Assembly (NCBI GenBank): GCA_012103315.1
Contig: WLWZ01000003.1
Span: forward strand, 1-64,000
Source: Alphaproteobacteria bacterium
GTDB lineage: Bacteria > Pseudomonadota > Alphaproteobacteria > MPNO01 > UBA2964
Length of the DNA stretch: 64,000 nucleotides
Direction: 5' to 3'
Shown here: positions 1,416 through 46,795 of the stretch, piece after piece
Numbering within the stretch: position 1 is the stretch's first letter
Layout of the letters: each line of letters opens with the position of its first letter
Made by a program: the position numbers and the translations under genes
The notes under the pieces: model-generated
The model's input: the letters and a program-made list of their open reading frames with translations, nothing else
Told to the model about the DNA's origin: nothing
Database searches by the model: none

Positions 1416-1512
1416 GTCGACCTCCTCGATTACAACAAAATAGCTGCGCTGTTTTCATATACCCCGTAAGCATCCTTCGACGGAACGCAGCAAAGAGCGC
1501 ATACTGCATTTA

Positions 1513-1989
1513 ATGGCATCCTACAGAAAACAATCCCAAAAGTCCGGCGAGTTACTTCTCGATGCGATCATTAGGCTCATCTACAGAGTCGGATTTCGCG
1601 TGATCGTCAAATTACGGCGCTTTGGATATCCTAAAAGGCCCGGCGTTGCTGTCGTCATCTGGTTTGGAGGAAAGGTTTTGGCAGTTCAGCACTCCTATAT
1701 TCAGGATTGGGGATTACCAGGCGGCTCCATCGACACTGGAGAAGAACCCAAGCAAGCCGCCGTCCGGGAAATGAAGGAAGAGCTGGGGCTAGACCTCAAT
1801 GCCGATGACCTGCTTCGCTGCGGCAACCTCAAGAACACTGAGGTTTTTAGAATAGACCTAACAACGGCACCCAATATCCAAGTCGATAATCGTGAGATCG
1901 TAGAAGCCTTTTTCATTGATCCCGAAGAACTCATTGCCAGGGTCTCCCGCTATGCCGATATTCTTCGAACGCCAACTAAACCAAGTTAG
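1513..1989 (+). CDS. Nudix hydrolase
   Basis: This 158-residue protein contains a complete Nudix box, G-x5-E-x7-R-E-x2-E-E-x-G, at about residues 71-93 (GSIDTGEEPKQAAVREMKEE...). The acidic residues coordinate Mg2+ for hydrolysis of a nucleoside diphosphate linked to another moiety. The N-terminal 40 residues are basic and amphipathic and precede the fold. The substrate (sugar nucleotide, mutagenic dNTP or other) cannot be predicted from the sequence. It stands alone between the DUF427 gene and a molybdoenzyme gene. Confidence 0.85.
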   Translation: MASYRKQSQKSGELLLDAIIRLIYRVGFRVIVKLRRFGYPKRPGVAVVIWFGGKVLAVQHSYIQDWGLPGGSIDTGEEPKQAAVREMKEELGLDLNADDLLRCGNLKNTEVFRIDLTTAPNIQVDNREIVEAFFIDPEELIARVSRYADILRTPTKPS

Positions 1990-2054
1990 GCAGGGATTTC
2001 CAGCGCGCCAAAGCCTGCTAAAATGGGACCAACAATGAGCAGGAGCATGTTCCG

Positions 2055-31107: not shown

Positions 31108-31920
31108 ATGATAAATCCTTCTGAACTCAGTACTGTCATTTTGTGTGGTGGCCTAGGCACCCGTTTGCGCGAGGAAACAGAGTTCAAGCCGAAGCCAATG
31201 GTGGAAATCGGCGGACGGCCAATCCTATGGCACATCATGAAACATTATCGCCACTATCTGATCCGCAATTTCGTTCTATGCATAGGATACAAGGGTGATG
31301 CCATTCGAGATTACTTCCTGAACTATCCGATCTACAATTCTGATTTCGCGATCGATTTTGCTTCAGGTGATGTAGAGACCCTTGCCAGCAGCTGCGAGGA
31401 AGATTGGCGTGTCGTACTCGCCGATACGGGTCGGGAAACGCTCACCGGATCACGCATTAAACAGACCCTGCGTTATATCGATCATGATGTCTTTTTTGCA
31501 ACCTATGGCGACGGTGTAGCTGACATCGATATAGATCGGCTTTACGCGCATCACCGGGCATCCGGACGATTGGCAACAGTAACGGCCGTGAGGCCATCTT
31601 CGCGATTCGGAGAACTGTCGATCGACAATAATCTAGTCACCCAGTTCCGTGAAAAGCCTCAAGTTGCCGAGGGCTGGATCAATGGCGGTTTCTTCGTATT
31701 TGACCGACGCGCATTTGATCTCGTGCGGCCGTCGGATGACGTCACTCTGGAAGAGGCCGTTCTCGAACGGTTAGCCGCCGAAGGGCAATTATCCGTCTAC
31801 AAGCATCACGGGTTTTGGCAATCGATGGATACCTTCCGCGAGATGACCCTTTTGAATGACATGTGGGATAGCGGCAAAGCCCCCTGGAGTATTTGGCAAG
31901 AATGCAGACTAACGGCTTAG
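31108..31920 (+). CDS. rfbF: Glucose-1-phosphate cytidylyltransferase
   Basis: RfbF makes CDP-glucose from glucose-1-phosphate and CTP, the first step to CDP-activated deoxysugars. The 270-residue protein shows the nucleotidyltransferase signature ILCGGLGTRLREETEFKPKPM and the RfbF-type FFATYGDGVADIDIDRL and GWINGGFFVFDRRAFD segments. Length is normal. It opens the glycan island and overlaps the dehydratase gene, so they are cotranslated. Confidence 0.94.
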   Translation: MINPSELSTVILCGGLGTRLREETEFKPKPMVEIGGRPILWHIMKHYRHYLIRNFVLCIGYKGDAIRDYFLNYPIYNSDFAIDFASGDVETLASSCEEDWRVVLADTGRETLTGSRIKQTLRYIDHDVFFATYGDGVADIDIDRLYAHHRASGRLATVTAVRPSSRFGELSIDNNLVTQFREKPQVAEGWINGGFFVFDRRAFDLVRPSDDVTLEEAVLERLAAEGQLSVYKHHGFWQSMDTFREMTLLNDMWDSGKAPWSIWQECRLTA

Positions 31921-32987
31921 ACCTCGCATTTTGGCGTAATCGTCGGGTATTCATCACCGGACATACCGGGTTTATGGGCTCCTGGCTGAGCCTTTGGCTG
32001 CACCAACTCGGCGCAGAGGTAGCAGGATACGCCTTATCACCGCCAACACAGCCGAGCCTGTTCGATGTTCTCGGCCTTGAAAACCACATGGTTTCGACAA
32101 TCGGTGACATTCAAAACTTGCCGCAACTGCGCGCGTCCATGAATGAGTTCGCCCCCGACATTGTTTTTCATTTAGCTGCCCAGCCAATCGTGAGCAAAGG
32201 ATATATCGACCCTGTCGGAACCTTTGGCACCAATATCATGGGCACAGTGAACTTACTGCAATCTATGCGTACGGCCCCCAGCATCAAGACAGCGCTGATC
32301 GTTACAACTGACAAGGTATACGAAAATCAGGAATGGGCATGGGGATACCGCGAAAGCGATCCGCTCGGCGGCCATGAGCCTTATGGCGCAAGCAAGGCCT
32401 GCGCAGAACTTGCTGCAAACGCCTTTCGGCATAGCTATTTCTCAGAAGACGAACAAGTTGGCATTGCAACCATCCGCGCCGGAAACATCATCGGTGGCGG
32501 TGACTGGGCGACAAACCGTATTATTCCGGACGCTATCCGAGCATTCTCCAACGGCAATCCGTTATCGATCCGTAATCCCGCCGCGACGCGCCCTTGGCAA
32601 CATGTTCTGGAACCATTGCGTGGCTATATGCAATTGGCGCAAAGCCTTCACCTAGATCCCGAAAATTTCGATGGACCATGGAACTTCGGCCCCTCTGAAG
32701 AGGATAGTGCACCGGTTTCGGTAGTCGCTGAGGAAATGACAACTCTCTGGGGCGGCGGGGCCAGTTGGAATTCTGCAATGGCACCTGCCGACATGGAAGG
32801 TACAAAAGAATCGCAAAGGTTAACTCTGAGTAGCAGTAAAGCTCATGAAATACTTGGGTGGCGACCGGTTTGGGGGTTGCAACGTGCGCTCTCCTCTACT
32901 GTCGCCTGGTATAAGGCCTATTTAGATCGTCAGAACATGGTTGATTTTTCGCTGGAACAAATAGCCCTTGCAGACGGAGCCAACTGA
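31902..32987 (+). CDS. rfbG: CDP-glucose 4,6-dehydratase
   Basis: RfbG converts CDP-glucose to CDP-4-dehydro-6-deoxyglucose. It is an extended SDR with a Rossmann GHTGFMGSW motif near residue 20 and the catalytic Y-x3-K in HEPYGASKACAE (Y161, K165 counted from ATG 31902). A TTG at 31893 would add three residues. TTDKVYENQEWAWGYRE and GNIIGGGDWA are typical of CDP-glucose dehydratases. Overlap with rfbF is 19 bp. No RfbH-type 3-dehydrase follows, so the 3-OH is probably kept. Confidence 0.94.
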   Translation: MQTNGLDLAFWRNRRVFITGHTGFMGSWLSLWLHQLGAEVAGYALSPPTQPSLFDVLGLENHMVSTIGDIQNLPQLRASMNEFAPDIVFHLAAQPIVSKGYIDPVGTFGTNIMGTVNLLQSMRTAPSIKTALIVTTDKVYENQEWAWGYRESDPLGGHEPYGASKACAELAANAFRHSYFSEDEQVGIATIRAGNIIGGGDWATNRIIPDAIRAFSNGNPLSIRNPAATRPWQHVLEPLRGYMQLAQSLHLDPENFDGPWNFGPSEEDSAPVSVVAEEMTTLWGGGASWNSAMAPADMEGTKESQRLTLSSSKAHEILGWRPVWGLQRALSSTVAWYKAYLDRQNMVDFSLEQIALADGAN

Positions 32988-32988
32988 G

Positions 32989-34275
32989 ATGGCGACAGCA
33001 ATTCAGGAATCTAGAAAACGGCAAACACCCTCGACACACTCGATGCATGCGACACCTTGCCGATTCTGCGGCACACCGCTGGAACAAAGTTTTATCGATC
33101 TCGGCGTACAACCGCCATCGAACAGCTATCTGCGGGCCAGCGAATTAAACTGTTCCGAACATTTCCATCCGCTCCATGCTTATGTCTGCACCAAGTGTTT
33201 TTTAGTTCAACTTGAGCAGTTTGAGTCGCCGGAAGAAATATTTAGCGACTACGCATACTTTTCGTCCTATTCCGAAAGCTGGCTAAAACACGCAAAGAAT
33301 TATTGCCAGATGGTCTCAGACCGGTTCGGCCTTAACGGACAACACCAAGTGATCGAAGTCGCAAGCAATGACGGCTACCTGTTGCAGTATTTTACAGCAA
33401 GAGGAATACCTGTCCTGGGCGTAGAACCAGCCGCCAATGTTGCACGTGTCGCCGAACAAAAGGGAGTGAAAACCAGGGTTGGGTTTTTTGGTCGCGCTAC
33501 AGCGCGACAACTCGTGGAGGACGGCTACGCCGCTGACCTTCTCATTGGCAATAACGTATTGGCGCACGTTCCCGATTTAAACGACTTTGTTGCGGCCTTG
33601 CGGATGACTCTTAAACCGGATGGTGTCATTACCATGGAGTTTCCCCATTTGCTCCGGCTCATGAGGGATTGCCAGTTTGATACAATTTACCACGAGCATT
33701 TTTCTTATTTTTCACTGTCCGCTGCCGAGCGGGTATTCCATGCACATGGTATGCGTTTATTCGACGTCGATGAACTACCGACGCATGGCGGTTCACTACG
33801 AATTTATGGCTGTCACCTCGAAGGACCACACCCGCTAGACACTCGCGTGGCAGAGCTAAAGCGACGCGAGGAGGATGCCGGCCTCAACAAAATCGGTACT
33901 TATGAGGGGTTTGGCGAACGGGTTCGGGTCGTAAAACGAAACCTGCTTTCCTTCCTGATTTCCGCAAAGAATGAAGGTAAAAATGTTGTCGCTTACGGCG
34001 CGGCTGCAAAGGGCAATACGCTTCTCAACTTCTGCGGCATCGGGCCCGACATGATTGATTACGTCGTCGACGCTAATCCGCACAAACAAGGGCTTTATTT
34101 GCCCGGCACACGCATACCCATTGCAACGCCAGACAAAATTGCGAGCACCCGCCCTGACTATGTTTTGATCCTACCGTGGAATCTGAAACACGAGATCATG
34201 GAGATGAATGCAAACGTCAAAGATTGGGGCGGCCAGTTTGTCTTACCAATTCCCGATGTTGAGATCGTTGGATGA
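32989..34275 (+). CDS. NDP-sugar C-methyltransferase (TylCIII/NovU type)
   Basis: This 428-residue SAM-dependent enzyme has three parts. An N-terminal zinc site comes from CRFCGTPL and VCTKCFLVQLEQF. The methyltransferase core has motif I VIEVASNDGYLLQYF, and the C-terminal C-methyltransferase domain has VAYGAAAKGNTLLNFCGIG. The start at ATG 32989 follows the rfbG stop at once. Family members put a methyl on a ring carbon of a 4-keto-NDP-sugar (C3 in mycarose, C5 in noviose). The substrate here would be the RfbG product or its epimer. Confidence 0.9.
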   Translation: MATAIQESRKRQTPSTHSMHATPCRFCGTPLEQSFIDLGVQPPSNSYLRASELNCSEHFHPLHAYVCTKCFLVQLEQFESPEEIFSDYAYFSSYSESWLKHAKNYCQMVSDRFGLNGQHQVIEVASNDGYLLQYFTARGIPVLGVEPAANVARVAEQKGVKTRVGFFGRATARQLVEDGYAADLLIGNNVLAHVPDLNDFVAALRMTLKPDGVITMEFPHLLRLMRDCQFDTIYHEHFSYFSLSAAERVFHAHGMRLFDVDELPTHGGSLRIYGCHLEGPHPLDTRVAELKRREEDAGLNKIGTYEGFGERVRVVKRNLLSFLISAKNEGKNVVAYGAAAKGNTLLNFCGIGPDMIDYVVDANPHKQGLYLPGTRIPIATPDKIASTRPDYVLILPWNLKHEIMEMNANVKDWGGQFVLPIPDVEIVG

Positions 34276-34865
34276 TCTTCCACTACACAGAAATAGAAGG
34301 TGCTTTTGTCGTAGAACCTGAACGACACGAAGACAATCGCGGTTGGTTTGCGCGCACTTATTGCCAAAAGCATTTTGAGGAAATGGGATTGGCAACGGAA
34401 TTCTCGCAATGCAGTGCCTCTTTCAATCAACATCGCGGAACTTTACGTGGACTTCATTTTCAGAAGGCGCCCTTTGGTGAAGCGAAGCTCGTTAGATGCG
34501 TACAGGGCGCAGTCTTCGATGTCGCTGTCGATATTCGACCAGACTCAAATACATTTGGCGCATGGACGGGGATCGAACTTAGCGCTGCAAATGTGAAATC
34601 GCTCTATATCCCAGATGGTTGTGCGCACGGTTTCCAGACACTGACCCATGACACCGAATTGTTTTACCAGATCGATATTCCATACCAGCCTGACTATTCT
34701 TGCGGCCTTCGGCACGACGATCCAGAAATCGGAATTGATTGGCCGATCGATTACCCAACATTGTCGGAACGCGACAAAACGTTGCCACTACTCGCGGAGC
34801 TTACGGGAGACCATTCCCACGTCCAAAACGGTGAAAACAGGCCGAATATAGCTGCTGCAAGCTAA
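34272..34865 (+). CDS. dTDP-4-dehydrorhamnose 3,5-epimerase family protein
   Basis: This 197-residue cupin-fold epimerase belongs to the RfbC/NovW family. FNQHRGTLRGLHFQKAPFGEAK contains the catalytic-base histidine region, and IPDGCAHGFQTL is the second signature. It overlaps the methyltransferase gene by 4 bp. In a CDP-sugar pathway it would epimerise C3, C5 or both of the 4-keto intermediate. The dTDP name reflects the family, not a shown substrate. Confidence 0.88.
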   Translation: MIFHYTEIEGAFVVEPERHEDNRGWFARTYCQKHFEEMGLATEFSQCSASFNQHRGTLRGLHFQKAPFGEAKLVRCVQGAVFDVAVDIRPDSNTFGAWTGIELSAANVKSLYIPDGCAHGFQTLTHDTELFYQIDIPYQPDYSCGLRHDDPEIGIDWPIDYPTLSERDKTLPLLAELTGDHSHVQNGENRPNIAAAS

Positions 34866-34937: not shown

Positions 34938-35879
34938 ATGCGTAACAACACAGCCGAAATAGTCGACATTGCCGCCCAACGGGCGAGTAATATCTCTCGG
35001 CTGAAGCGCTTCTATTCAGAAATGATATTGATTCGTACCGTTGAACAAACCCTACTGGACCTGTTTTCCGAAGGATTGCTGCGCGGCACCGTTCACACTT
35101 GTCTCGGTCAAGAAGCGAGCGCAGCGGGCGTGATCAACGCCCTCGACAAAGATCGCGATATCGTATGTTCGAACCATCGTGGCCATGGGCATTACCTCGC
35201 CTATTGCGCCGACGTCGAAGGTCTGATCGCAGAAGTTATGGGGCTTCCCCAAGGTGTTTGCGGTGGAATTGGCGGTAGCCAACATCTCCATCGGAAGAAT
35301 TTCTACTCCAACGGCATCCTCGGCGGCATGTCTCCTATCGCAACCGGGTTTGCGACAGCGGAGAAGTCGAAGAATAGCGGCGCGGTCACGGTCGTGTTCC
35401 ACGGCGACGGCGCGATGGCAGAAGGCGCCATATACGAGTCGTTCAATCTCGCAGCATTGTGGCAACTACCGATACTGTTCGCTGTTGAAAGCAACAAGTA
35501 CGCGCAATCAACGCGGATTGAGAGCGAGATCGCTGGATCATTCCTTGGGCGTGCCGAGGCCTTTGGCCTAACGGCTGCCGAAGTCGACGGTAATGATGTT
35601 CTTGCCGTCAATGACGCAGCTACGGAGATCGTTTCAAACATCCGGACTGGCAAGGGCCCCGCAATGCTAGTCCTCGACACATACCGGATGGGCCCTCATA
35701 GCAAAGGTGATGACGATCGAAATCCCCAAGAAATAGAATCACATCGCGATAATTGCCCGATTACCCGTACACGCACTCAACTCGATGCTGATTGGTGCGA
35801 CGAGACCAAACTCGCAGCAACAGCAAAAGTTGATGCCGTTGTTAATACGCTAAAGGCGAGTAGAGGGCGAACGGACTGA
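34938..35879 (+). CDS. Thiamine-diphosphate 2-oxoacid dehydrogenase E1, alpha subunit
   Basis: This 313-residue protein is an E1-alpha of the PDH/acetoin dehydrogenase type. It has the ThDP motif GDGAMAEGAIYESFNLA with VESN about 26 residues on, and the histidine-rich NHRGHGHYLAY and GGIGGSQHLH loops. E1 decarboxylates a 2-oxoacid and hands the acyl group to a lipoyl lysine. The beta subunit follows after 2 bp, and then a lipoyl-domain fusion instead of a normal E2. No E3 or housekeeping PDH gene is nearby, so this E1 seems dedicated to the glycan island. It could also add a two-carbon branch to a keto-sugar, as AviB1/AviB2 are proposed to do in avilamycin. Confidence 0.9.
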   Translation: MRNNTAEIVDIAAQRASNISRLKRFYSEMILIRTVEQTLLDLFSEGLLRGTVHTCLGQEASAAGVINALDKDRDIVCSNHRGHGHYLAYCADVEGLIAEVMGLPQGVCGGIGGSQHLHRKNFYSNGILGGMSPIATGFATAEKSKNSGAVTVVFHGDGAMAEGAIYESFNLAALWQLPILFAVESNKYAQSTRIESEIAGSFLGRAEAFGLTAAEVDGNDVLAVNDAATEIVSNIRTGKGPAMLVLDTYRMGPHSKGDDDRNPQEIESHRDNCPITRTRTQLDADWCDETKLAATAKVDAVVNTLKASRGRTD

Positions 35880-35881
35880 CA

Positions 35882-36883
35882 ATGACGACGTATCTCGCCA
35901 GCCTGCAAACAAGTTTGCACAACGCCTTTGAAGCCGATGCCCGAGTTGTCTTATTGGGAGAGGATGTCCTCGATCCCTATGGCGGCGCCTTTAAAGTTTC
36001 AAAGGGCTTGAGCACTGACTTCCCCAACCGGGTCATGACCACCCCCATTTCCGAAGGCGCTATCACCGGTGTTGCCGCAGGCATGGCAATGCGTGGCATG
36101 AAACCCGTTGTCGAGATTATGTTTGGTGACTTTCTAACATTGTGCGCCGACCAAATCGTCAACCACATCGCCAAGTTCCGCGGTATGTTCAATGATCAGG
36201 TGCGGGTTCCGTGCGTGATAAGAACACCAATGGGGGGCGGTCGCGGTTATGGTGCGACCCATTCACAAAGCCTAGAAAAAATGTTTCTCGGCACACCGGA
36301 AATTCGGATTGTTGCCCCCAGCCACGCTCACGACCCCGGCGAAATGCTTGCCAAGGCGGTTCTTCAGGCCGAAGAACCAATTTTGTTTCTTGAAAATAAG
36401 CTGCTCTATCCGATGTCACTTGCGGAATCTGAAGGCGCTATCAACGTTGAGTATTGGGACAAGGAAAGCGGCTATCCAACCGCCATCGTCCGGAACCATT
36501 CGTTGACCGCAGCTGATGTAACCGTTGTCTCCTACGGGGGCATGTCTCGTGTGATTCTGCCGTTGTTGGAAGAACTCGCCGAAGAAGAAATTTCCGTCAC
36601 CGCAGCATTTCCAGGAAGTCTCCAACCTCTTCCAATCGATAGTTTAATCATGGCTGCATCGGAAAGCGGCCGCGTCGTTATTGCAGAAGAAGGAACCGAG
36701 GCCTTCGGTTGGGGAAGCGAAGTATCCGCCTTACTCGGTGAGCACCTGTATGGCAAACTTGAGGCTCCGATTGTTCGCCTTGCAGCGAAATCCCGGGTCA
36801 TACCTGCCGCAGAAGCTGGCGAGGAAGACGCGCTCGTACAAGCCACTAATATCGAAGATGCCATTATGGGGCTGCTGGTATGA
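35882..36883 (+). CDS. Thiamine-diphosphate 2-oxoacid dehydrogenase E1, beta subunit
   Basis: This 333-residue protein pairs with the preceding alpha subunit. The ThDP-binding glutamate region PISEGAITGVAAGMAMRG, then KPVVEIMFGDF, and the substrate loop RTPMGGGRGYGATHSQSLEKM are intact. The transketolase C-terminal domain begins near residue 205. The stop overlaps the start of the lipoyl fusion gene by 4 bp, which indicates equimolar synthesis of all three proteins. Confidence 0.92.
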   Translation: MTTYLASLQTSLHNAFEADARVVLLGEDVLDPYGGAFKVSKGLSTDFPNRVMTTPISEGAITGVAAGMAMRGMKPVVEIMFGDFLTLCADQIVNHIAKFRGMFNDQVRVPCVIRTPMGGGRGYGATHSQSLEKMFLGTPEIRIVAPSHAHDPGEMLAKAVLQAEEPILFLENKLLYPMSLAESEGAINVEYWDKESGYPTAIVRNHSLTAADVTVVSYGGMSRVILPLLEELAEEEISVTAAFPGSLQPLPIDSLIMAASESGRVVIAEEGTEAFGWGSEVSALLGEHLYGKLEAPIVRLAAKSRVIPAAEAGEEDALVQATNIEDAIMGLLV

Positions 36884-38049
36884 GCGGCTTAATCCTTACC
36901 CCTACTGTAACGGCCAATGAAGATACCCTCATTCTTTCGCAGTGGTACAAGGATGACGGCGCCTTCGTCCGAAAGGGTGAAGTTCTCTGTGGTGTGGAAA
37001 CCAGCAAAGCAACGGTCGATATCGAAGCTGATCAAGACGGTTACTTATCGCGCCTGACAGATATCGGCGCTACGACAAAGGTCGGCACGGCCATCGCAGC
37101 CATAACAGACTCAGTCAATGACGATGTTCAAGCTCTCATCGACGGGCCAGCAGCTGAGACCGACACGAAGAAAAAATGGACCAAGAAGGCCGCTATCGTT
37201 GCTAAACGGCTAAACATCGACATAGAAAAACTTTCCGAAAGATCACCAAGCACAACGATTACCGAAGCCGATGTCCTCGCCGCTCAGGACATATCTGCTG
37301 AACAGACCCAGCCGGCTGCACCAACAGTGCAGTCCACGGCACCTACTCAAGAAACCCAAGACATCTTTGAAAGTGCATACCCCAACAACCAGCCTGAACG
37401 GGTACTCCTGCTCGGCGGTGGCGCTGGCGCCGGGGCCATGAGTGTCGATGTCTTGGCTCGGACACACAAACAACGTGCCGTTGGCATTCTCGACGGAAAC
37501 GCGGCAACGCACGGCAAAACCGTTGGTGGTGTTTCCGTTATAGGAACCCTTGATTTAGTTGAGGAGCTCTGGGGCGAAGGCGCCTTTGACGCGGCAGTTA
37601 TCCTGTTTACCCAAGATGTCGACGAACGGGCAGAAGTATACAACGAGCTGAGACGCAAGGGTGTTCGTTTTACGAATATCATCGATCCAACCGTCGATAT
37701 TCGCGGTGGCACGACCTTTGGCGAGGGTAACCTCATCATGGCCAATGCGTTTTTCTCGACAGCCGTTACAGTTGGCAACAATTGTTTCTTTGCCAGCCAT
37801 TGCGTGATCGAACATCACAGCAAAATTGGCAATCACTGCGCGTTTGGTCCGCGGACGACAACTTCCGGTGCCGTTGTCGTTGGCGACCGAGTGAAGACCG
37901 GCATGTCAGTCTCTATCGAGCCCTATATTACCGTCGGCGCAAATTCGTTAATCGCTTCGGGAAGTATGATCACCAGTGATGTTCCCGAAAACTCGCTGAT
38001 TAAATCGAAACAAACCCACAACGTTCAAGCCAAACAGGGCACGAAATGA
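36880..38049 (+). CDS. Lipoyl domain + E3/E1-binding domain + NeuD/PglD-like left-handed beta-helix acyltransferase fusion
   Basis: This 389-residue protein combines parts not normally joined. Residues 1-80 are a lipoyl domain with modifiable K43 in VETSKATVDIEAD. Residues 97-136 match a peripheral subunit-binding domain (TKKAAIVAKRLNIDIEKL, then TITEADVLAA). A Q/A/P/T-rich flexible linker runs to about 168. Residues 170-389 are a NeuD/PglD-like sugar acyltransferase: a Rossmann-like start (RVLLLGGGAGAG), then hexapeptide repeats with FFASHCVIEHHSKIGNHC, where an H is the expected base. In ordinary complexes the C-terminal E2 domain passes acyl from lipoyl to CoA. Here a sugar acyltransferase takes its place, suggesting direct acyl transfer to an amino- or hydroxy-sugar. 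Confidence 0.85.
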   Translation: MSGLILTPTVTANEDTLILSQWYKDDGAFVRKGEVLCGVETSKATVDIEADQDGYLSRLTDIGATTKVGTAIAAITDSVNDDVQALIDGPAAETDTKKKWTKKAAIVAKRLNIDIEKLSERSPSTTITEADVLAAQDISAEQTQPAAPTVQSTAPTQETQDIFESAYPNNQPERVLLLGGGAGAGAMSVDVLARTHKQRAVGILDGNAATHGKTVGGVSVIGTLDLVEELWGEGAFDAAVILFTQDVDERAEVYNELRRKGVRFTNIIDPTVDIRGGTTFGEGNLIMANAFFSTAVTVGNNCFFASHCVIEHHSKIGNHCAFGPRTTTSGAVVVGDRVKTGMSVSIEPYITVGANSLIASGSMITSDVPENSLIKSKQTHNVQAKQGTK

Positions 38050-38900
38050 GCAGTGTTCTGAAATCAGTCGAGACATCCCACTCAGTTGGCAAAGCGCCAC
38101 ATGGGCAACAGCTCAGCGCCACCCGCCGAACGATGCTCGACGAGATGGGATACGTCCATATCCCGGGATTCTTCGACGTCGGAGATGAGTTGCAGCCGAT
38201 TATCGATGACATCGCACGTTGTGGCGAACGCATATGCGATGAATTTGACTTTTACGATGCCAGCTACATTGAAGCCTTGGGTCAGGAACAGCGATCCACA
38301 CTCTACAATCTGCTGCGCTATCTGCCGTCCCTCACCCGACTGACCTCCTCAGAAACACTTTTGGACAGTTCAAGGCGTGCAGGCATGGAGTTCCCGATGG
38401 TTCTTCGGTCCTACAACATCCGAATGGACACACCGAACCGAGATGAGTTTCTGTTTCACTGGCATCAGGACATCACCTATTTGCTTGGCTCTGCCAACAC
38501 CCTCACCTATTGGATTCCATTGGTCGAGGTCGATGAGAACAACGGCAGCGTGGAAGTTGTGCCTGGTAGCCATCGGCAAGGCATACGCCCCTTTCGATAT
38601 ACCGGCGAAAAGGCGCTCGCGAGGGATACTGTCCTTTCGCCATCCGACGCGCGGTTAATAGAAGAGCCCGAAACAGCTGGGGTCACAATCACAGCCAAAC
38701 CCGGTGACCTTGTTCTCTTTTCCCAGTTTCTTCTGCATAGGAGTACACCCAACCGATCTCGTCAAACCCGGTGGACAGTCCAGATCCGCCATGCCGATGC
38801 TTTCGATCAAAATTTCATCGATGCCGGTTATCCATGCGGCGATGCAACCAACATTTTCCATACCGATTTGTTTGGTCATTTTTCAGCCGAGGAAAAATGA
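38046..38900 (+). CDS. Phytanoyl-CoA dioxygenase (PhyH) family oxygenase
   Basis: This 284-residue Fe(II)/2-oxoglutarate-dependent oxygenase has the metal triad H140-x-D142 (WHQD) and H231 (LLHRSTPNRS), with a basic R-Q-T-R stretch behind it for 2-oxoglutarate. PhyH enzymes hydroxylate or epimerise small molecules, including sugars in antibiotic pathways. It overlaps both the acyltransferase fusion and the next methyltransferase by a few bases, so it belongs to the island operon. Likely substrate: the sugar nucleotide or its acyl group. Confidence 0.87.
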   Translation: MSSVLKSVETSHSVGKAPHGQQLSATRRTMLDEMGYVHIPGFFDVGDELQPIIDDIARCGERICDEFDFYDASYIEALGQEQRSTLYNLLRYLPSLTRLTSSETLLDSSRRAGMEFPMVLRSYNIRMDTPNRDEFLFHWHQDITYLLGSANTLTYWIPLVEVDENNGSVEVVPGSHRQGIRPFRYTGEKALARDTVLSPSDARLIEEPETAGVTITAKPGDLVLFSQFLLHRSTPNRSRQTRWTVQIRHADAFDQNFIDAGYPCGDATNIFHTDLFGHFSAEEK

Positions 38901-40012
38901 TGCTCACAGCCGAACAACATATCAATAACTACGCCAATAGCATGTTTCGGTTTGAACGGCTGAATGACGCGTGGATCGATTCATGCGCAGCATACCTACA
39001 GTATGTCTTTGGTGATCGCTTGCTGGGCAAAACTGTCGTGGATTACGCATTTGGTCGCGGCAATTGGTCCCTGGCCTTCCTTAAAGCCGGGGCGAGCAAA
39101 GTCATCGCAATCGATGCAGCAACGGATAACGTTGCGCGGTTCTCCAGATATTGTCGACAGAATGGGATTGCCGATATTGAAGTCATCGAGGGCAACGTAC
39201 TGTCTGCTCCAATAAACGCCGATGCCGACATCGTTTGGCTATATGGCATCCTACATCACGTCGAACCTGCCGCTTTATTCTTGAAACATATAACTGCGCT
39301 GGCACCGCGTGATGACGCGTTGTTCTATGTCTATGCATATAATCGAGACTCTTTACGCGAATTTGTTGTCAATGCGTGCCGCCGTGTCTGTCAATATGAC
39401 AACGAACAAGATTTTCGTACCGATGCCCCTTACCTCACACGTGCCGCTCGACTACGCGGACGCGATGATCTAACTGCGCCACATATCGACTGGTATCGAT
39501 CTAGTGATCTTGCTGAATTGCTCGCGAGCAACGGCTTATATGCCACCGTACGTCACGATGGATTTGAGAAATTTAACAACAGCTTTTGTTGCGATGAATT
39601 TCAACCGCATCAATGGCTGTGCCAGCGGGGCGAAGCCGGAAAAATTTCCGTTCTCGACGCAAAACGACGTTATGAAGATGATGTCAATGTTCTTAAATCT
39701 ATGTGGCAGTCAATCGTCACTGCGGGTATCGCAGAGCCTGACCTTCAGAAAATTGGGCTCGGTCTGTTTAACGCCCATTTCGCGGCGCTAGAGAATACTG
39801 CCACGTCAGAGGGCGCCGTCATCGAGGACTTTCAATTCCTCCTCTACGTTCTGATATCTCATGACGTTGAGCTGGATAATCAGTCGCCGGCATCCCGCTA
39901 CACAACACTGGCGCTTGCGTCTCTCAACGGCAATCCAACTGATCAAATTGCAGCAGCTAGCGATGACACGCTTGTCGCTCACCATCTGCGCACCAACCGC
40001 ATTCGTTTGTAG
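38897..40012 (+). CDS. Class I SAM-dependent methyltransferase
   Basis: This 371-residue protein starts at ATG 38897 (AGGA 3 bases upstream) or the adjoining ATG 38900. Residues 45-160 form a class I methyltransferase fold, with motif I VVDYAFGRGNWSLAFL, an acidic motif II IAIDAATDN and the post-motif IVWLYGILHHVE. The C-terminal 180 residues are helical and not recognised. An O- or N-methylation of the island sugar is likely from context, though the family alone does not fix the substrate. Confidence 0.82.
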   Translation: MMLTAEQHINNYANSMFRFERLNDAWIDSCAAYLQYVFGDRLLGKTVVDYAFGRGNWSLAFLKAGASKVIAIDAATDNVARFSRYCRQNGIADIEVIEGNVLSAPINADADIVWLYGILHHVEPAALFLKHITALAPRDDALFYVYAYNRDSLREFVVNACRRVCQYDNEQDFRTDAPYLTRAARLRGRDDLTAPHIDWYRSSDLAELLASNGLYATVRHDGFEKFNNSFCCDEFQPHQWLCQRGEAGKISVLDAKRRYEDDVNVLKSMWQSIVTAGIAEPDLQKIGLGLFNAHFAALENTATSEGAVIEDFQFLLYVLISHDVELDNQSPASRYTTLALASLNGNPTDQIAAASDDTLVAHHLRTNRIRL

Positions 40013-40039: not shown

Positions 40040-41623
40040 ATGATCGTACTAGGGCTGCATAAGGACCCCTGGCACAATTCCGGGGCCACGATCATTCGCG
40101 ATGATGGTGACGGACCTCAATTCGCCTATATTTCTGAGGAACGGATGGATCGGGTCAAGGACTCTCGTTCGTTTCCGGAATGCTCCACCCGAGCCTGTAT
40201 GGAGGAGCTCGGTATTGAGGGTATCGAAGAGATTGATCTCATCGTCCTTGATTATATTCTAAATGGTGACGACTGGCGGCAGGATTATCACCAAGCCAAA
40301 TCCCGCACTGATGTTTTTCTCGCAGATGTTCCGGCCAGCAAAGTAAGAACTGTCAACCATCACCTGTGTCATGCCTTCTCAACCTTTTACTCTTCATCCT
40401 TTGAAGATGCTGCTGTTCTTGTCATCGATGGACGCGGCTCGGATCATGAAACGCAGAGCCTCTTTCACGGCACTAAAGACGGCCTGGAACTCGTTGAGAC
40501 TACTGACGCGATCGGAATCGGGCTTCTCTACGCAGCGGTTACAAATGTCATTGGGTTTGGCCTCCTTCAGGAAGGCAAGACTATGGGGCTTGCTCCCTAT
40601 GGCGATGGCGTCGGTTCACAAATATTCGATTTTAAGGGTGAATTTGACGGCATACGAACGGATTACAGCGCCGTCTGCGCGGAAGGGAAGAATGAGTTCA
40701 AGGTCCCTTTCAAGGCCATCAGCAACGATGAAGAACAAGCCCGCGCCGCGTTCGAGGTTCAGGAAGAATGCGAACGTGCCATGCTCCATTTAGCTGAATA
40801 TGCCAAAGCCCGAACCGGTAGCGATTACCTTTGTATTTCCGGCGGTGTTGGACTGAATTCGGTCTCTAATTACAAATGCCTGCAGGCAAACATTTTCAAA
40901 GACGTTTTCATTAATCCAGCAGCATCAGATACGGGCATCCCGCTTGGTGCCGCTCTTTATGGTTACCACCAGCTGTGCGGTCAGCCAAAAACCTATGACA
41001 CGATTTCACCCTTCCTCGGCCCGTCTTATTCAGAGGATCGAATTGAAACTGCGATCAAAGCAGCTGACGGTTTCGAATGGATTCGGAACGGAATTGATCA
41101 CGCCAGCGAAATGCTCGCGAAGAACCAGATTGTCGGCTGTTTCCAGGGACGGTCCGAAATGGGCCCACGGGCTCTCGGTAATCGTAGCATCTTAATGAGT
41201 CCCATCGATCCCAAGAATAAGGACACGCTCAATAGCCGTGTCAAACATCGTGAGGCGTTTCGACCATTTGCACCTGCCATTCTAGAGGAGCGGGTAGCAG
41301 AGTACTTCGAGATCGATCGTCCCAGCCCCTATATGCTTTTTGTGCCGACCGTCGTTCCTGACAAACGCGATATCATTCCAGCGGTCACCCATGTTGACGG
41401 AACTGCTCGGGTTCAAACTGTTACCAAAGAACGCAATCCGCATTTCCGTCGTCTGGTTGAATCCTTCGAGGCCCAGACCGGCGTACCGGTTCTCCTAAAC
41501 ACATCGTTTAACGATAACGGCGAACCAATTGTAGAGACCCCTGAAGACGCCATCCGCTGTTTCCTCAAAACCGATATCGATGCGCTTCTTATTGGCGATC
41601 ACCTCCTGATCAAGGCGGCCTAG
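40040..41623 (+). CDS. O-carbamoyltransferase, NodU/CmcH/NovN family
   Basis: This 527-residue enzyme uses carbamoyl phosphate and ATP to carbamoylate a hydroxyl, usually on a sugar. The N-terminal kinase-like part has VNHHLCHAFSTFYSS (H107/H108/H111 metal site) and VLVIDGRGSDHE. The C-terminal YrdC-like part has FQGRSEMGPRALGNRSIL, RVKHREAFRPFAPAIL and VPVLLNTSFNDNGEPIV. Relatives include NovN, which carbamoylates noviose. Full length and all motifs suggest an active enzyme. Confidence 0.93.
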   Translation: MIVLGLHKDPWHNSGATIIRDDGDGPQFAYISEERMDRVKDSRSFPECSTRACMEELGIEGIEEIDLIVLDYILNGDDWRQDYHQAKSRTDVFLADVPASKVRTVNHHLCHAFSTFYSSSFEDAAVLVIDGRGSDHETQSLFHGTKDGLELVETTDAIGIGLLYAAVTNVIGFGLLQEGKTMGLAPYGDGVGSQIFDFKGEFDGIRTDYSAVCAEGKNEFKVPFKAISNDEEQARAAFEVQEECERAMLHLAEYAKARTGSDYLCISGGVGLNSVSNYKCLQANIFKDVFINPAASDTGIPLGAALYGYHQLCGQPKTYDTISPFLGPSYSEDRIETAIKAADGFEWIRNGIDHASEMLAKNQIVGCFQGRSEMGPRALGNRSILMSPIDPKNKDTLNSRVKHREAFRPFAPAILEERVAEYFEIDRPSPYMLFVPTVVPDKRDIIPAVTHVDGTARVQTVTKERNPHFRRLVESFEAQTGVPVLLNTSFNDNGEPIVETPEDAIRCFLKTDIDALLIGDHLLIKAA

Positions 41624-41633
41624 GTACAGTAGG

Positions 41634-42488
41634 GTGGCAAGCGAAACCTTCACCATATTCGGCGCGACCGGCTTTATTGGCTCAGCTCTTGCAAACCGCC
41701 TCAAAGCAGAAGGACATTGTGTTCAAACGCCAGCACGAGATACCCCAATCGAAAGCAAACCGATGGGCCATATTATCTATGCGATTGGACTGACAGCTGA
41801 TTTCAGAACCCGCCCGTTCGAAACAATCGACGCCCATATTGGTCGGCTCCAGGAGATTCTCTCTTCGGCAACTTTCGACTCGTTTTTGTATTTATCTTCC
41901 ACGCGCGTATATGCGCGGGCTTCGGACGGACAAGAAGACACATCAATCCCGACCGACACGTCTGATCCAAGCGATCTCTACAACCTGTCAAAGCTTACGG
42001 GCGAGTCACTCTGTCTCAACTGCGGCCCAGCCACACGCATAGCGAGGCTTTCTAACGTCTTCGGTGCGGCAATGATGGAAACACCAAGTTTTCTATCGAG
42101 TGTCATAGGCGAAGCATTAGCGCAAAATCACATCACTCTTCACAGCAACCCGGCCTCCGCCAAAGATTATGTCGCCATCGATGATGTCATAACGGCACTT
42201 ATTCATATTGCCCTAAATGGCAGCGACCGAATTTATAATGTCGGTTCTGGCGCCAATGTCACACACGGTGAAATTCTTGACCGCATCGCCGCGCTGACAG
42301 GGGCCACCTGGTCTGTGGACGAGAAAGCCAACGCCATCGAATTTCCGGTAATTTCAACTCAAAAACTGTCAGAGTCTGTTAACGCATTCGGGGCAAAATG
42401 GTCCCCACAAAGCGTTATCGACGAACTCCCCGACCTTATTGCCGAGACGCAACGATATATCGAACCAGCCAAAGGTGCTGTCGCATGA
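41634..42488 (+). CDS. NAD-dependent epimerase/dehydratase (SDR)
   Basis: This 284-residue SDR starts at GTG 41634, because the Rossmann motif FGATGFIGSALA (G10, G13, G16) begins just after it. The catalytic Y116-x3-K120 is in DLYNLSKL. In this setting it may be the 4-ketoreductase that finishes the deoxysugar, as NovS does for noviose, or an epimerase. Its stop overlaps the next start (ATGA type). Confidence 0.85.
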   Translation: MASETFTIFGATGFIGSALANRLKAEGHCVQTPARDTPIESKPMGHIIYAIGLTADFRTRPFETIDAHIGRLQEILSSATFDSFLYLSSTRVYARASDGQEDTSIPTDTSDPSDLYNLSKLTGESLCLNCGPATRIARLSNVFGAAMMETPSFLSSVIGEALAQNHITLHSNPASAKDYVAIDDVITALIHIALNGSDRIYNVGSGANVTHGEILDRIAALTGATWSVDEKANAIEFPVISTQKLSESVNAFGAKWSPQSVIDELPDLIAETQRYIEPAKGAVA

Positions 42489-43264
42489 CACAAGCAGAAA
42501 CGATTACGATCGACCCAACAAACGACATGGTTATTCTCAAAAATGGTGATGCCGAAACACAGCTCGCCATGGATTCCGCGGAGGCGTTCTCCGCCGTCAG
42601 TAAAGCCTGGTTGCGCTGCGGGTGGGACACCAAATATGTTTATAGCTTCAGCTGGTTGGGACGACCGATGATCCAGTTGCCGGAAGATATGATCCGGCTT
42701 CAGGAGGTTATCTATCAGGTCAAACCTGACGTGATCATCGAAACCGGCATTGCTCATGGTGGTTCTCTTATTTTTCACGCTTCACTTTGTCAGGCGATGG
42801 GGAAAGGGCGCGTTGTTGGTGTCGACATTGAGATACGACCTCATAATCGTGAGGCGATCACCAGCCACGAACTTCACAAGTACATAACCATGTACGAAGG
42901 CAGCTCAATCGATCCAGACGTCGTGAGTAAAGTTCGGAATGAAGTCAAAGATAATGACCGTGTTCTCATAATTCTCGATTCAAATCACACCAAGGAACAT
43001 GTCTTGGGCGAAATCGAAGCCTATGCGCCCCTCGTCTCCAAAAACTCATACGTCATTGCCTGTGACGGCATCATGGCCGAAGTAAAGGGCGCGCCACGCA
43101 CTGAAGAAGATTGGGACTGGAACAACCCAGTGACCGCAGCAAAAGAATTTGCAGCCAACAGTGACGACTTCATCCTTGAAGAGCCGGTATTCCCATTCAA
43201 TGAGGGGGTGGTCTCTGAGCGCGTAACTTACTGGCCCAGCGCCTATCTCAAGAAGATTAGCTAG
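42485..43264 (+). CDS. Cephalosporin hydroxylase (CmcI)-like methyltransferase/hydroxylase
   Basis: This 259-residue protein belongs to the CmcI family, which has a Rossmann methyltransferase fold. The start at 42485 overlaps the SDR stop. Motif I is VIIETGIAHGGSLIFHASL, followed by VVGVDIEIRPHNR and LIILDSNHTKEHV. CmcI helps install a 7-alpha-methoxy group on cephamycin, and relatives in glycan clusters are probable O-methyltransferases acting on sugars. It is the last gene of the plus-strand island. Confidence 0.85.
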   Translation: MTQAETITIDPTNDMVILKNGDAETQLAMDSAEAFSAVSKAWLRCGWDTKYVYSFSWLGRPMIQLPEDMIRLQEVIYQVKPDVIIETGIAHGGSLIFHASLCQAMGKGRVVGVDIEIRPHNREAITSHELHKYITMYEGSSIDPDVVSKVRNEVKDNDRVLIILDSNHTKEHVLGEIEAYAPLVSKNSYVIACDGIMAEVKGAPRTEEDWDWNNPVTAAKEFAANSDDFILEEPVFPFNEGVVSERVTYWPSAYLKKIS

Positions 43265-43268
43265 GCCT

Positions 43269-45791
43269 CTAGCGTAGACAGTGGTCGCTCGCGACCTTGA
43301 CCATTAGCTCACTAAAGTTCCGACCAAACTCTTCGGCTTTGCCGAGCGGAGAATCCTTCACCATATTCCGTAAATTACGCCGCAGTTCCACGAGCCTGCC
43401 ATGGTTCTGTGCGAGTTCTATGGCAACATCGATGTAAGCTTCGTCAGTTTCGACACACAAATCACGCAATCCCAAATCACAAAGATGGCTATAGGTCAGC
43501 CGCTGATGCACGCTAGGCCCATATTTCGTCACGATGGGAACCCCCATCCAGAGAGCGTCACAGCTCGTTGTCCCCCCTGTGAGCGGGAAACTATCCAACG
43601 TTAAATCAATCTCATTATAAAACGAGAAGTGAGACAATCCGCTTTCCCGGTTATTGGTAAAGGTCAACCTATCCCTTGTAACGCCCTGTGCTTCAAACTC
43701 CCTAACGATGTTCTCAACCACGAGCTGTTCTCGATATTCAGGATGAGCAAAAAGGTAACGAGCGTCAGGCAATTGCTTTAGAACTTTTGCCCAAAGCGCG
43801 ATGGCCTCACGGGTAAATTTATACGGGTTATTCAATGTGCCGATGGTGACATAACCATTGCGGTGTACCGGCGGGTTTTCAATGGTTGGTATCGCCTCAA
43901 AAGGATCATAACAAACCCAACTTCCGGGCATGATCAGTGGCTTTTCGATGAGCCAGTCTGATTCTGCAGGTGCCACGTCTTCATCAAGCAAGACGTAATC
44001 CATTGCCGCCATGCCCCGGGTAAAGGGGTAGCCAAGCCAACAAACCTGCACCGGTGCCGGACGATGCGCCATGACAGAAAACTGGCTATCCGCCGTGAAG
44101 CCGTTGAGTTCAAAAAGGATATCAATTTCATCATCGCGAATAATTTGTGCCGCTTCCTTGTAATCACCAGTACCGGTAATCCGAAATTCTTTGACCAGCC
44201 CTCGAATACGACTCTGAATGTCGTCGTCTTCGGCTGCCTTCGGGGAGTAACAATAAATTTCAATCTGAGACCGGTCGTAATTTTCAAATAGCGGCAAGAC
44301 AAAACGGGCAACGGAGTGCCGCCGAAGGTCAGACGACACAAACCCCACCCGTATCGAGCCAGATCTATTACTCAAGTCAATGACGGCTGCGTCCTTAACC
44401 TCAGCCCCTCGGGTGATCTTATCGCCCCAGCGGCAATGCATATCTGCAAGCTCACCAATCTTCTCCGGCGTATCTGCCCAAGTGAGCAATTCCAGAAAAA
44501 CACCAGCCCATTTTGAGAGGTCATAGTCTTCCACCTCCGAAAGAGAAATCGGTAGATTCTCGATATCGTCAAAAGCGCAGGCAGCCCGGAACACGGTATA
44601 GGGCTTCATAAACATCGATGGTCGGAAATCCTTCATTCGGGCCACATCGTGCGCCAGCGCCGTTGCCTCACCGAGCTCATCCAATGCCGCCAAGACCAAT
44701 GACAAATCCAGACTGGCAGCCAGATAGTACGGCGACCCTTTCCTAATTTTCCGAAGGAGTTCGATAGCTTCATCCAAATTTTTCTGAATCAAAAAGCAGC
44801 GTGCCAACTCTATGCAGGACGCGTCGCTGCCCTCACCTGTTGCGAGGATATTCCGCAACACCATTTCCGCGGCCTCGAGTCGACCCGCTTTGAGTAAGGC
44901 TGCGCCAAAGTCATGATGCAATGTGACATCAGTTGGTCTTTCCCGAGCAAGCTCGTCATAAAGCGCCAACGCCTCTTCGAACTTACCATTATTGAAGAGG
45001 GCGCCCGCAAGATGCTGCGGATCCTCCCACCGGTCGGCCGGATGGGTCAGCGCCTCATCGAATAGGGCACGCGCTTCGTCGAATTTCTCAAGACACTGCA
45101 GAACGGTACCCAGATTGTTAAGAGTCTCTGGCTTATCGGGCTCTAACTCGAGAGCGCGCCTATAGTGACCTTCCGCCTCCACAAAATTTTCAACATGCTC
45201 AAGAGCGTAGGCAAGATTGTTGTGCGTGGTCGCGTCGCCTTCTGACAGAGACAAAAATCGCGAATACCAGTCTACTGCCTCCGTAAACTGCCCGTGATCG
45301 AGATAAAGCTCTGCGAGTCTCTTTAAAAACCGGGGTTCGTCAGGCTTCAATTTGTGGGCGATCTCGAAACTTTTTTGTGCGCTACGGACGTCACCGATCC
45401 GAGCAGAAATTGCCGCCAGGTTTGCATGCGCATCAACGAAGCGTGGATTTAACTTTACCGCACGCTTAAAACTGTTGGCCGCTTCCTTTAGATCATCAAT
45501 TGCGGTTTGGGCCGCGCCCAAGTTCGAGTACGCATCAGGGTTTTTCGGATTCTTCTTGAGAGATCGTTTGATGAGATCGACGGCCTTGGCATGTTCGCCA
45601 CCCTGGTGATGCACGACACCCAATAGATGCAACGCATCAGGCTGCGTCGGCTGGTGTGCAAGAACCTTCTCGTAACATTGTGCCGCAAGCGCCAAATTGC
45701 CCGACTGATGATACTGAACACCCTGTTGAAGAGTCTGCCCTAGACCAGTTTGGTTTTGACCTGGCCCACCAGCCGCATTTCTTACTGTCAT
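43269..45791 (-). CDS. TPR-GT41 (FlmG/SPINDLY-like) protein glycosyltransferase, copy 1
   Basis: This 840-residue protein has about ten TPR units (residues 20-380), then a GT41 O-GlcNAc-transferase-like catalytic region (about 480-830). Visible motifs are RVGFVSSDLRRHSVARF, ILFELNGFT, WLGYPFTRGM and LDSFPLTGGTTSCDALWMGVP. In Caulobacter the TPR-GT41 enzyme FlmG glycosylates flagellin in the cytoplasm. Here three such genes lie between the sugar island and the flagellins. It ends 4 bp from the CmcI-like gene, in convergent orientation. Confidence 0.9.
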   Translation of the reverse strand: MTVRNAAGGPGQNQTGLGQTLQQGVQYHQSGNLALAAQCYEKVLAHQPTQPDALHLLGVVHHQGGEHAKAVDLIKRSLKKNPKNPDAYSNLGAAQTAIDDLKEAANSFKRAVKLNPRFVDAHANLAAISARIGDVRSAQKSFEIAHKLKPDEPRFLKRLAELYLDHGQFTEAVDWYSRFLSLSEGDATTHNNLAYALEHVENFVEAEGHYRRALELEPDKPETLNNLGTVLQCLEKFDEARALFDEALTHPADRWEDPQHLAGALFNNGKFEEALALYDELARERPTDVTLHHDFGAALLKAGRLEAAEMVLRNILATGEGSDASCIELARCFLIQKNLDEAIELLRKIRKGSPYYLAASLDLSLVLAALDELGEATALAHDVARMKDFRPSMFMKPYTVFRAACAFDDIENLPISLSEVEDYDLSKWAGVFLELLTWADTPEKIGELADMHCRWGDKITRGAEVKDAAVIDLSNRSGSIRVGFVSSDLRRHSVARFVLPLFENYDRSQIEIYCYSPKAAEDDDIQSRIRGLVKEFRITGTGDYKEAAQIIRDDEIDILFELNGFTADSQFSVMAHRPAPVQVCWLGYPFTRGMAAMDYVLLDEDVAPAESDWLIEKPLIMPGSWVCYDPFEAIPTIENPPVHRNGYVTIGTLNNPYKFTREAIALWAKVLKQLPDARYLFAHPEYREQLVVENIVREFEAQGVTRDRLTFTNNRESGLSHFSFYNEIDLTLDSFPLTGGTTSCDALWMGVPIVTKYGPSVHQRLTYSHLCDLGLRDLCVETDEAYIDVAIELAQNHGRLVELRRNLRNMVKDSPLGKAEEFGRNFSELMVKVASDHCLR

Positions 45792-45826: not shown

Positions 45827-46795
45827 TCACGAACGAAGCCCGTGACGTTCAACCAACATTTCCATTTTCTTCTGAAACGCTTGGACATAATCCTGGGTCC
45901 GGCAAATAGCCGAGCCTTGAAGGCCTGAAGGCAATTCACGCCTTAAAAATACTAGCGTTTCGGGATCATTTGCTAATTCAACGGCGATGCGGACATAATC
46001 CTCATCATTGTCGGCACAAAGTTCCTGCAGATTAAGATTGACCATGTGACTGTATCCGAGCCGCTGATGAATGCTTGGACCATATTTCGTCACTACCGGA
46101 ATACCCATCCACAGAGTCTCGCATGTGGTGGTCCCTCCGGTGAGAGGAAACGTATCCAGTGAAACATCGAACTCATCGTAGAAAGAGAGGTGAGAGAACT
46201 CTGTCTTCCGATTATTCACAAAGAATAATCTTTCTGCTCCAACGTCGTGTTTCGCAAATTCATCACTAAGATTCTGGCGAATAATGGCCGAGTCAGCCTC
46301 CGGGCGAACATAAAGAAACCGAGAACCAGGCACCTCTTTCAAAACCCTCGCCCACAGAGCGATGGTCCCCTTAGTCAGCTTATAGGGGCTATTTTGCGAT
46401 CCGAAAGTCACAAAACCATTGCGCTCCATAGGGGGACGTTCGCTAATGGGCTCAGCAGAAAACTCGTCAAAGGCGACCCAACTCTCCGGCATTTCCAGTA
46501 CAGCCTCTGACGTCCAATTAGCATTTTCTGGTTTTACGTGCGGATCCAGTAATATGTAATCCATCGCCTCCAGCCCGGTCGTGAAAGGAAAGCCAAGCCA
46601 AAATATTTGAATTGGCGCTGGTTTATAGGCAAGTGCCTTTAGGCGGCTATCATTAGTAAAGCCATTCAGTTCGAACAGGATATCAATTTCGTCTTCCCGA
46701 ATGCTGGCTGCAAATTCTCGGTCATTAGTGGTCGACAAAACTTTGAAATCGGCGACTTTTGATTTGATCTGCAACTGAATTTCATCTTCTGGATA
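45827..46795 (-). pseudogene. TPR-GT41 glycosyltransferase copy 2, C-terminal catalytic part after an amber codon
   Basis: This segment continues in the same frame as 46796-47710 after a TAG stop. It carries the GT41 domain: EDEIDILFELNGFTNDSR, FWLGFPFTTGLEAMDY, LDTFPLTGGTTTCETLWMGIP and RLGYSHMVNLNLQELC. Compared with copy 3, the stop aligns to a glutamate codon (A-P-M-E-A-R-D-D versus A-P-I-stop-Y-P-E-D), so one GAG to TAG change explains it. The only nearby start is a weak TTG at 46772-46774. Without readthrough this half is probably not made. Confidence 0.85.

Follow-up and report, generated by a model that had tools for sequence, protein, structure and literature searches.

Two groups of enzymes are among the described relatives of the system reported here. 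Enzymes of the NeuD/PglD/VioB type, which acylate sugars, depend on coenzyme A (CoA) (PMC8040287). QncN/QncL/QncM take a C2 glycolyl unit from a ketose phosphate and attach it via a lipoyl-bearing acyltransferase and an acyl carrier protein (ACP), so this system is a described precedent for a route from E1 through lipoyl to a non-CoA acceptor (PMC6335953). The locus analysed here is a trio of genes within a 64,000-nucleotide stretch of contig WLWZ01000003.1 (assembly GCA_012103315.1) of an Alphaproteobacteria bacterium, referred to below as the window. The trio encodes the alpha and beta subunits of a thiamine diphosphate (ThDP)-dependent E1 and a protein in which a lipoyl domain, a peripheral-subunit-binding-like domain (PSBD) and a NeuD-type left-handed beta-helix (LbH) acyltransferase are fused.

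We consider it likely, from the comparisons described below, that the trio serves to deliver acyl groups to nucleotide sugars; the acyl, probably glycolyl, would pass from lipoyl-K43 of the fusion through the LbH domain to a sugar with no CoA involved and with an E3 (lipoamide dehydrogenase) supplied by the host. A preliminary description of the window had already proposed that the catalytic E2 domain is replaced in this protein and that the lipoyl arm may pass an acyl straight to a sugar. This idea is supported by the occurrence of the architecture across phyla, and further by the invariance of K43 and H312, the near absence of a C-terminal GxP hinge and the swapping of domains on the E1/lipoyl chassis.

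Domain structure and conserved residues of the trio

The three genes are translationally coupled (Table 1), and both their coordinates and their coupling are exactly as first described. The E1beta gene starts 2 nt past the E1alpha stop codon, the fusion gene overlaps the E1beta gene by 4 nt (ATGA), and the following gene (38046) overlaps the fusion gene likewise. The catalytic residues and the ThDP motif of E1 are intact: G156-D-G158...N186, R250 and H254 of E1alpha and E58 and H127 of E1beta are conserved across the family. The intact residues include the apparent equivalents of H128beta and H271alpha, two histidines implicated in acyl transfer from ThDP to lipoate (PMC2663715), and these equivalents are invariant in the trio E1s.

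The domain assignments made earlier for the fusion were borne out. The lipoyl domain with K43 matches Pfam Biotin_lipoyl well above the cut-off (2e-9; 37.6 bits against 22.1), and K43 is found in an E-x-[TSA]-K context in all 73 NeuD-type fusions of our alignment. Biotinylation of this domain was considered and ruled out, because the MKM motif is present in 0 of the 73 relatives. Although Pfam E3_binding remained under its threshold in the window fusion and matched weakly in just 4 of 34 relatives, the subunit-binding-like domain is backed by a 25-sequence profile of region 97-140, whose top PDB matches are subunit-binding domains of pyruvate dehydrogenase (PDH) E2 (1w4i, 1.3e-9), and by three short helices (102-110, 115-121 and 129-140) in the AlphaFold2 model of the fusion. 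This model (mean predicted local distance difference test score, pLDDT, 88.7) also contains a lipoyl barrel with K43 at the turn joining strands 35-40 and 45-49, a disordered segment at 143-165 where a flexible linker had been proposed, and a NeuD fold at 172-378. No match to PF00198 (2-oxoacid_dh, the chloramphenicol-acetyltransferase or CAT type) was obtained for the fusion in the Pfam scan. Its C-terminal part is a NeuD-type LbH, as had been read from the sequence: it matches Hexapep (4.8e-15) and, below the cut-off (131.5 against 160.8 bits), NCBIfam NeuD TIGR03570, and the fold comparison returned VioB (7txp, Z 28.9) and PerB (4eaa, Z 28.6). Like the NeuD/PglD/VioB enzymes, it consists of a Rossmann-like lobe and a left-handed beta-helix.

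P8, N13, E40, K43, G54, A104, G179, R250, G283, H312 and P324 are invariant in the 73 fusions, and D205 in the nucleotide-binding lobe is kept in 71. H312 aligns with PerB H141, the residue mutated in 4eaa and 4eab. His142 of Pcryo_0637 and His125 of PglD form a conserved pair within the sugar site, and the conserved C-terminal proline of Pcryo_0637 changes from trans to cis upon CoA binding (PMC8040287). The C-terminal GxP hinge is present in 39 of 41 stand-alone NeuDs versus only 2 of the 73 fusions (L014 and L082); the window fusion lacks it, and two more regular-expression matches in fusions fall at other positions. Since H312 and D205 are kept and the hinge is nearly gone, the acceptor site appears to have been retained and the CoA-responsive element lost.

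Distribution of the trio and phylogeny of its E1

An E1beta scan of named genomes yielded at least 567 relatives, of which the best 80 were analysed. Their hosts span about ten phyla, including Nitrospirota, Pseudomonadota, Chloroflexota, Chlorobiota, Verrucomicrobiota, Myxococcota, Bacillota, Planctomycetota and Actinomycetota. Three of the 80 sequences end at E1beta, and all 77 with flanking sequence have a lipoyl-acyltransferase open reading frame (ORF) near E1beta, nearly always directly downstream. The acyltransferase domain is of the NeuD type in approximately 70 of these (two cut by contig ends), of another LbH type in 4 (one cut) and of the CAT type in 3, with L061 as one further CAT-type case. 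No CAT E2 was found beside the NeuD-type trios in the loci examined. A full-length fusion was identified in 1 of 385 sampled alphaproteobacteria (the genome of the window alone), in 2 of 369 genomes from the class that includes G753 and in 2 of 48 from another class, and none was found in genomes of the same genus or among PLSDB plasmids.

A search for the same trio in glycan loci of other genomes, suggested in the preliminary description, was positive; the trio was found across phyla with sugar genes as neighbours, most commonly DegT aminotransferases (11/94), glycosyltransferases (6/94) and sugar transferases (5/94). Cassettes syntenic to that of the window are present in Nitrospiria, Rhodoferax, Aliidiomarina and Chromatiales. 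Genes for cytidine diphosphate (CDP)-sugars were found in L062, L066, L095 and L099, whose shared pathway genes are approximately 40-62% identical to those of the window; L062 and L066 also contain GT41-like genes, and L066 contains flagellins.

Several variants of the trio were observed. In four loci (L124:6505-8166, L129:10815-12569, L076:2176-3672 and L081:2343-3245), the same E1 is accompanied by another, longer LbH acyltransferase following the lipoyl-PSBD arm; these proteins are approximately 500-520 aa when complete, keep G[IV]PAK and possibly represent a separate acceptor class. E1alpha and E1beta are fused into one ORF, as in RenH, in L018 (G753), L017 (G457), L060 (G1107) and L061 (G509). 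In the last of these (1159-4307), the fused E1, which belongs to the same clade, is followed by a lipoyl-PSBD-CAT protein and then by a methyltransferase-like gene, and no nonribosomal peptide synthetase (NRPS) gene was seen within 7 kb.

In the E1beta tree, all NeuD-type systems fall inside a 90-row clade with 100% support in the Shimodaira-Hasegawa-like approximate likelihood ratio test (SH-aLRT). The same clade contains RenH, encoded on the renieramycin plasmid, and ACP-gene-linked E1s of Streptomyces/Streptantibioticus NRPS/polyketide synthase clusters, whereas the PDH encoded by the genome of the window and E1s from acetoin- or other 2-oxoacid-type operons lie outside, in a data set that includes few conventional E1s and represents the lipoyl-tethered natural-product systems by RenH and L157/L158/L160; L160, which groups with the ACP-linked L157/L158, was excluded from the conventional E1s. 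Q115, A189 and Q190 of E1alpha and S44, R121, Y123 and T126 of E1beta are common to LbH and CAT members, L087 being an exception at R121 and Y123; the conventional E1s in the comparison lack these residues. H80 of E1alpha was dropped as a marker of donor specificity, because conventional E1s have it too.

The E1beta tree implies 10 switches in the type of acyltransferase domain (NeuD LbH, other LbH or CAT), a number made uncertain by weak forks, with the starred branches alone requiring approximately two changes per label. RenI combines a lipoyl N-terminus of this kind with a domain that, read by eye, is CAT-like. As expected of a modular E1-lipoyl chassis whose last domain would set the acceptor, the CAT type occurs with ACP in annotated natural-product clusters and the LbH type with sugar clusters.

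Proposed mechanism, acyl donor and alternatives

In the proposed mechanism, the E1alpha/E1beta heterodimer with ThDP would cleave its donor, which is probably a ketose phosphate and would yield a glycolyl unit, and the acyl would be moved reductively from ThDP to lipoyl-K43 of the fusion, which E1 would hold through the PSBD. Thanks to the linker, the lipoyl arm could reach the NeuD/VioB-type LbH domain of the same protein. This domain would bind the nucleotide sugar and, with H312 as the base, hand the acyl to an amino or hydroxyl group of the sugar without CoA. A host lipoamide dehydrogenase would then re-oxidise the dithiol. The shared E1 clade and lipoyl arm, together with the sugar acyltransferase domain, suggest the same chemistry as in the Qnc systems, except that the acyl would go from E1 via lipoyl to a nucleotide sugar. 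From sequences and models we infer lipoylation, formation of an E1-fusion complex, CoA independence, the identities of acyl and acceptor, and recruitment of E3.

The trio had earlier been thought to save E3 if the dithiol were re-oxidised otherwise. However, the dithiol becomes reduced when lipoate takes over the acyl from ThDP, irrespective of the donor, so that re-oxidation would still be needed. No full-scoring E3 was found in 68 long loci and none in the window, which is a weak criterion as E3 is not always encoded beside E1 and E2. The genome of the window encodes two lipoamide dehydrogenases scoring over the family cut-off, as well as LipA. Because the reduced lipoyl must be re-oxidised and the trio loci contain no E3, use of a housekeeping E3 is assumed.

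The donor originally suggested was a 2-oxoacid. The same machine would then cleave pyruvate or a branched or hydroxylated 2-oxoacid, and the sugar would receive acetyl, propionyl, a branched acyl or a similar group. The catalytic residues of PDH are retained in this E1, and the solved structures closest to it are those of PDH and other 2-oxoacid E1s. Nevertheless, we consider this donor unlikely: since the trio E1s cluster with RenH and with ACP-linked systems, with which they also share pocket residues, and apart from the sampled 2-oxoacid E1s, a ketose phosphate giving glycolyl is favoured. An acetyl route would also presumably bring little gain, acetyl-CoA being abundant.

More doubtful is the possibility that the LbH domain uses acyl-CoA like any ordinary sugar acyltransferase and is just tethered to E1 by the lipoyl-PSBD region, acyl-CoA being made by a housekeeping E2 nearby. 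Its fold matches CoA-bound structures, and the NeuD/PglD/VioB enzymes use CoA (PMC8040287). However, the GxP hinge is nearly absent from the fusions, NeuD-type trios have no adjoining CAT E2, and tethering would not require an invariant lipoyl lysine, so we regard this as improbable.

It is still harder to see E1alpha/beta as a carboligase adding a two-carbon branch to a keto-sugar, with the fusion as a separate modification enzyme: E1-like pairs occur in deoxysugar pathways, two-carbon carboligation onto keto-sugars has been demonstrated with YerE and suggested for AviB1/B2, and the window contains keto-sugar genes, but the E1 is strictly linked with a lipoyl domain, the equivalents of H128beta/H271alpha, which are implicated in lipoate acylation, are invariant, and the E1 groups with lipoyl/CAT systems.

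The following points weigh against lipoyl-mediated glycolyl transfer to sugars as we propose it. The donor is deduced just from the phylogeny and from pocket residues held in common, and the clade may not share one specificity. The PSBD of the window fusion is divergent and falls under the Pfam cut-off. GVPGR or G[IV]PAK is retained in the NeuD-type fusions L014 and L082 and in the other LbH fusions L076, L124 and L129, and these proteins may use CoA. Finally, the best tree of the LbH domain places the fusions in three groups (3 changes), on which independent origins look likely, but a single origin of the fused domains stands in the approximately unbiased (AU) test (p 0.37-0.47). The loss of the GxP hinge may therefore represent one or two historical events, and convergent loss is not claimed.

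A wider reading, for which we see the chances as evenly balanced, is that CoA-independent acylation of nucleotide sugars is widespread, with a transketolase-like E1 converting ketose phosphate to glycolyl-lipoyl, with swappable acyltransferase domains and, in CDP-deoxysugar loci, with a vinelose-like glycolyl ester on flagellin.

Genomic setting, predicted product and relation to known systems

The window is a flagellar region with fli/flg-type genes, flagellins and tetratricopeptide repeat (TPR)-GT41 proteins, GT41 being named from sequence reading. The trio lies inside a CDP-deoxysugar cassette at 31-43 kb (Table 1).

Table 1. Genes of the CDP-deoxysugar cassette, domains of the fusion protein and a nearby TPR-GT41 gene in the window
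Feature	Position	Strand	Evidence
Glucose-1-phosphate cytidylyltransferase (RfbF type), opens CDP-sugar pathway	31108..31920	+	TIGR02623 335 bits, cut-off 300.25
CDP-glucose 4,6-dehydratase (RfbG type)	31893..32987	+	TIGR02622 470 bits, cut-off 278.45
Sugar C-methyltransferase	32968..34275	+	Pfam Methyltransf_13, Methyltransf_14
3,5-Epimerase (RfbC type)	34272..34865	+	TIGR01221 183.9 bits, cut-off 155.75
E1alpha subunit (ThDP binding)	34938..35879	+	Pfam E1_dh 6.5e-57; conserved residues
E1beta subunit (pyrimidine-binding and transketolase C-terminal domains)	35882..36883	+	Pfam Transket_pyr 3.9e-33, Transketolase_C 9.4e-19
Lipoyl/subunit-binding/NeuD-type LbH acyltransferase fusion, 389 aa	36880..38049	+	
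Lipoyl domain, fusion residues 1-80; K43 codon 37006-37008	36880..37119	+	Pfam Biotin_lipoyl, K43, model
Peripheral-subunit-binding-like domain, fusion residues 97-141	37168..37302	+	Profile 1.3e-9, model helices
Flexible linker, fusion residues 142-165	37303..37374	+	pLDDT <50 for 143-154, 156-165
NeuD/VioB/PerB-like sugar acyltransferase domain, fusion residues 172-378; H312 codon 37813-37815	37393..38013	+	
PhyH-type Fe(II)/2-oxoglutarate dioxygenase, 4-nt overlap with fusion	38046..38900	+	Pfam PhyH 2.6e-21
Methyltransferase	38894..40012	+	Pfam Methyltransf_25 1.4e-9
NodU-like carbamoyltransferase	40040..41623	+	Pfam Carbam_trans_C 2.8e-72, Carbam_trans_N
NAD-dependent epimerase/reductase, candidate 4-ketoreductase	41634..42488	+	Pfam Epimerase 1.7e-22; counterparts in L062, L066
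CmcI-family (rhamnosyl O-methyltransferase) methyltransferase; in-frame start within ORF 42398-43264	42485..43264	+	Pfam RMNT_CmcI 5.1e-71
TPR-GT41 (SPINDLY-like), candidate flagellin glycosyltransferase	43269..45791	-	Sequence reading; counterparts in L062, L064, L066

The genes of the window predict a pathway from CDP-glucose to a 4-keto-6-deoxy sugar, followed by 3-C-methylation, 3,5-epimerisation, 4-reduction, acylation, O-methylation and transfer to flagellin. The acceptor of the acyl group would probably be a CDP-6-deoxy-3-C-methyl-hexose (at its 4-OH), and the GT41 transferases would attach the finished sugar to flagellin. The CDP-deoxysugar acceptor put forward initially thus fits the window, where CDP-sugar genes are present and no DegT-type aminotransferase was found, so that the acylated group is probably a hydroxyl. 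In many of the other loci, the acceptor is probably an amino sugar instead, because a DegT aminotransferase is the commonest neighbour.

CDP-vinelose of Azotobacter vinelandii is a CDP-linked, 6-deoxy, 3-C-methyl, O-methylated sugar with an O-methylglycolyl ester at O-4, and its glycolyl ester has been on record since the 1960s. This structure fits the gene content of the window, for which a vinelose-like CDP-sugar bearing a glycolyl ester is predicted as a possible product. As a candidate, the trio could account genetically for the glycolyl ester that CDP-vinelose carries.

Three further observations concern the surroundings of the trio. A PhyH dioxygenase gene follows the fusion gene in the window, where the two are translationally coupled, and also in L095 (12147); the enzyme may hydroxylate the sugar or the acyl (e.g. 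acetyl to glycolyl). A second SPINDLY-like TPR-GT41 gene on the minus strand seems split (45827-46774 and 46796-47710), with its TPR and catalytic parts in different frames approximately 22 nt apart, which points to a frameshift in the gene or else to an error in the assembly. The same genome contains a second glycan locus, L020 (C14:240000-257000), with NeuB-, NeuC- and NeuD-like genes, a deacetylase-like gene and a formyltransferase-like gene (all named from reading), a set that suggests N-acyl group exchange on a nonulosonic acid.

The known donors of sugar acyltransferases of this fold are acyl-CoA or acyl-ACP, and lipoyl delivery, if true, would be a third donor class. It would provide a way for uncommon acyls, glycolyl among them, to arrive on surface sugars with no CoA ester involved, assign a function to a gene trio of about ten phyla, and represent a new use of the pyruvate-dehydrogenase toolkit, on activated sugars that decorate flagella and surface glycans. 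Lipoyl-tethered transfer to ACP, so far a natural-product oddity, would become one branch of a general modular system.

No description of the lipoyl/PSBD/NeuD-LbH architecture was found in the open literature, most subscription journals being outside this coverage. The trio shares with PDH and other 2-oxoacid dehydrogenase complexes a ThDP E1 heterodimer, a lipoyl domain and a PSBD-like domain, but it has neither a CAT catalytic domain nor an E3 gene, and its E1 belongs to a separate clade. With the NeuD/PglD/VioB/PerB N-acetyltransferases, the fusion has in common the two-lobed fold, the catalytic His and the nucleotide-binding Asp; unlike them, it carries a lipoyl-PSBD arm, and the CoA-responsive C-terminal GxP hinge is nearly always gone.

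The ACP motif scan (60-140 aa), a crude pattern that misses ACPs such as that of L158, seen by eye, had no hits among the ORFs of the window and of the trio loci. Systems of the NapB/NapD, QncN/QncL/QncM, SclQ1-4 and RenH/RenI type resemble the trio in delivering an acyl from a lipoyl(-PSBD) arm to a non-CoA acceptor, and the E1 clade and pocket residues are shared as well, in the comparison made with RenH and L157/L158/L160. These natural-product systems, however, use a CAT-type acyltransferase and an ACP acceptor, whereas the trio has a NeuD-type LbH and, as we infer, a nucleotide-sugar acceptor.

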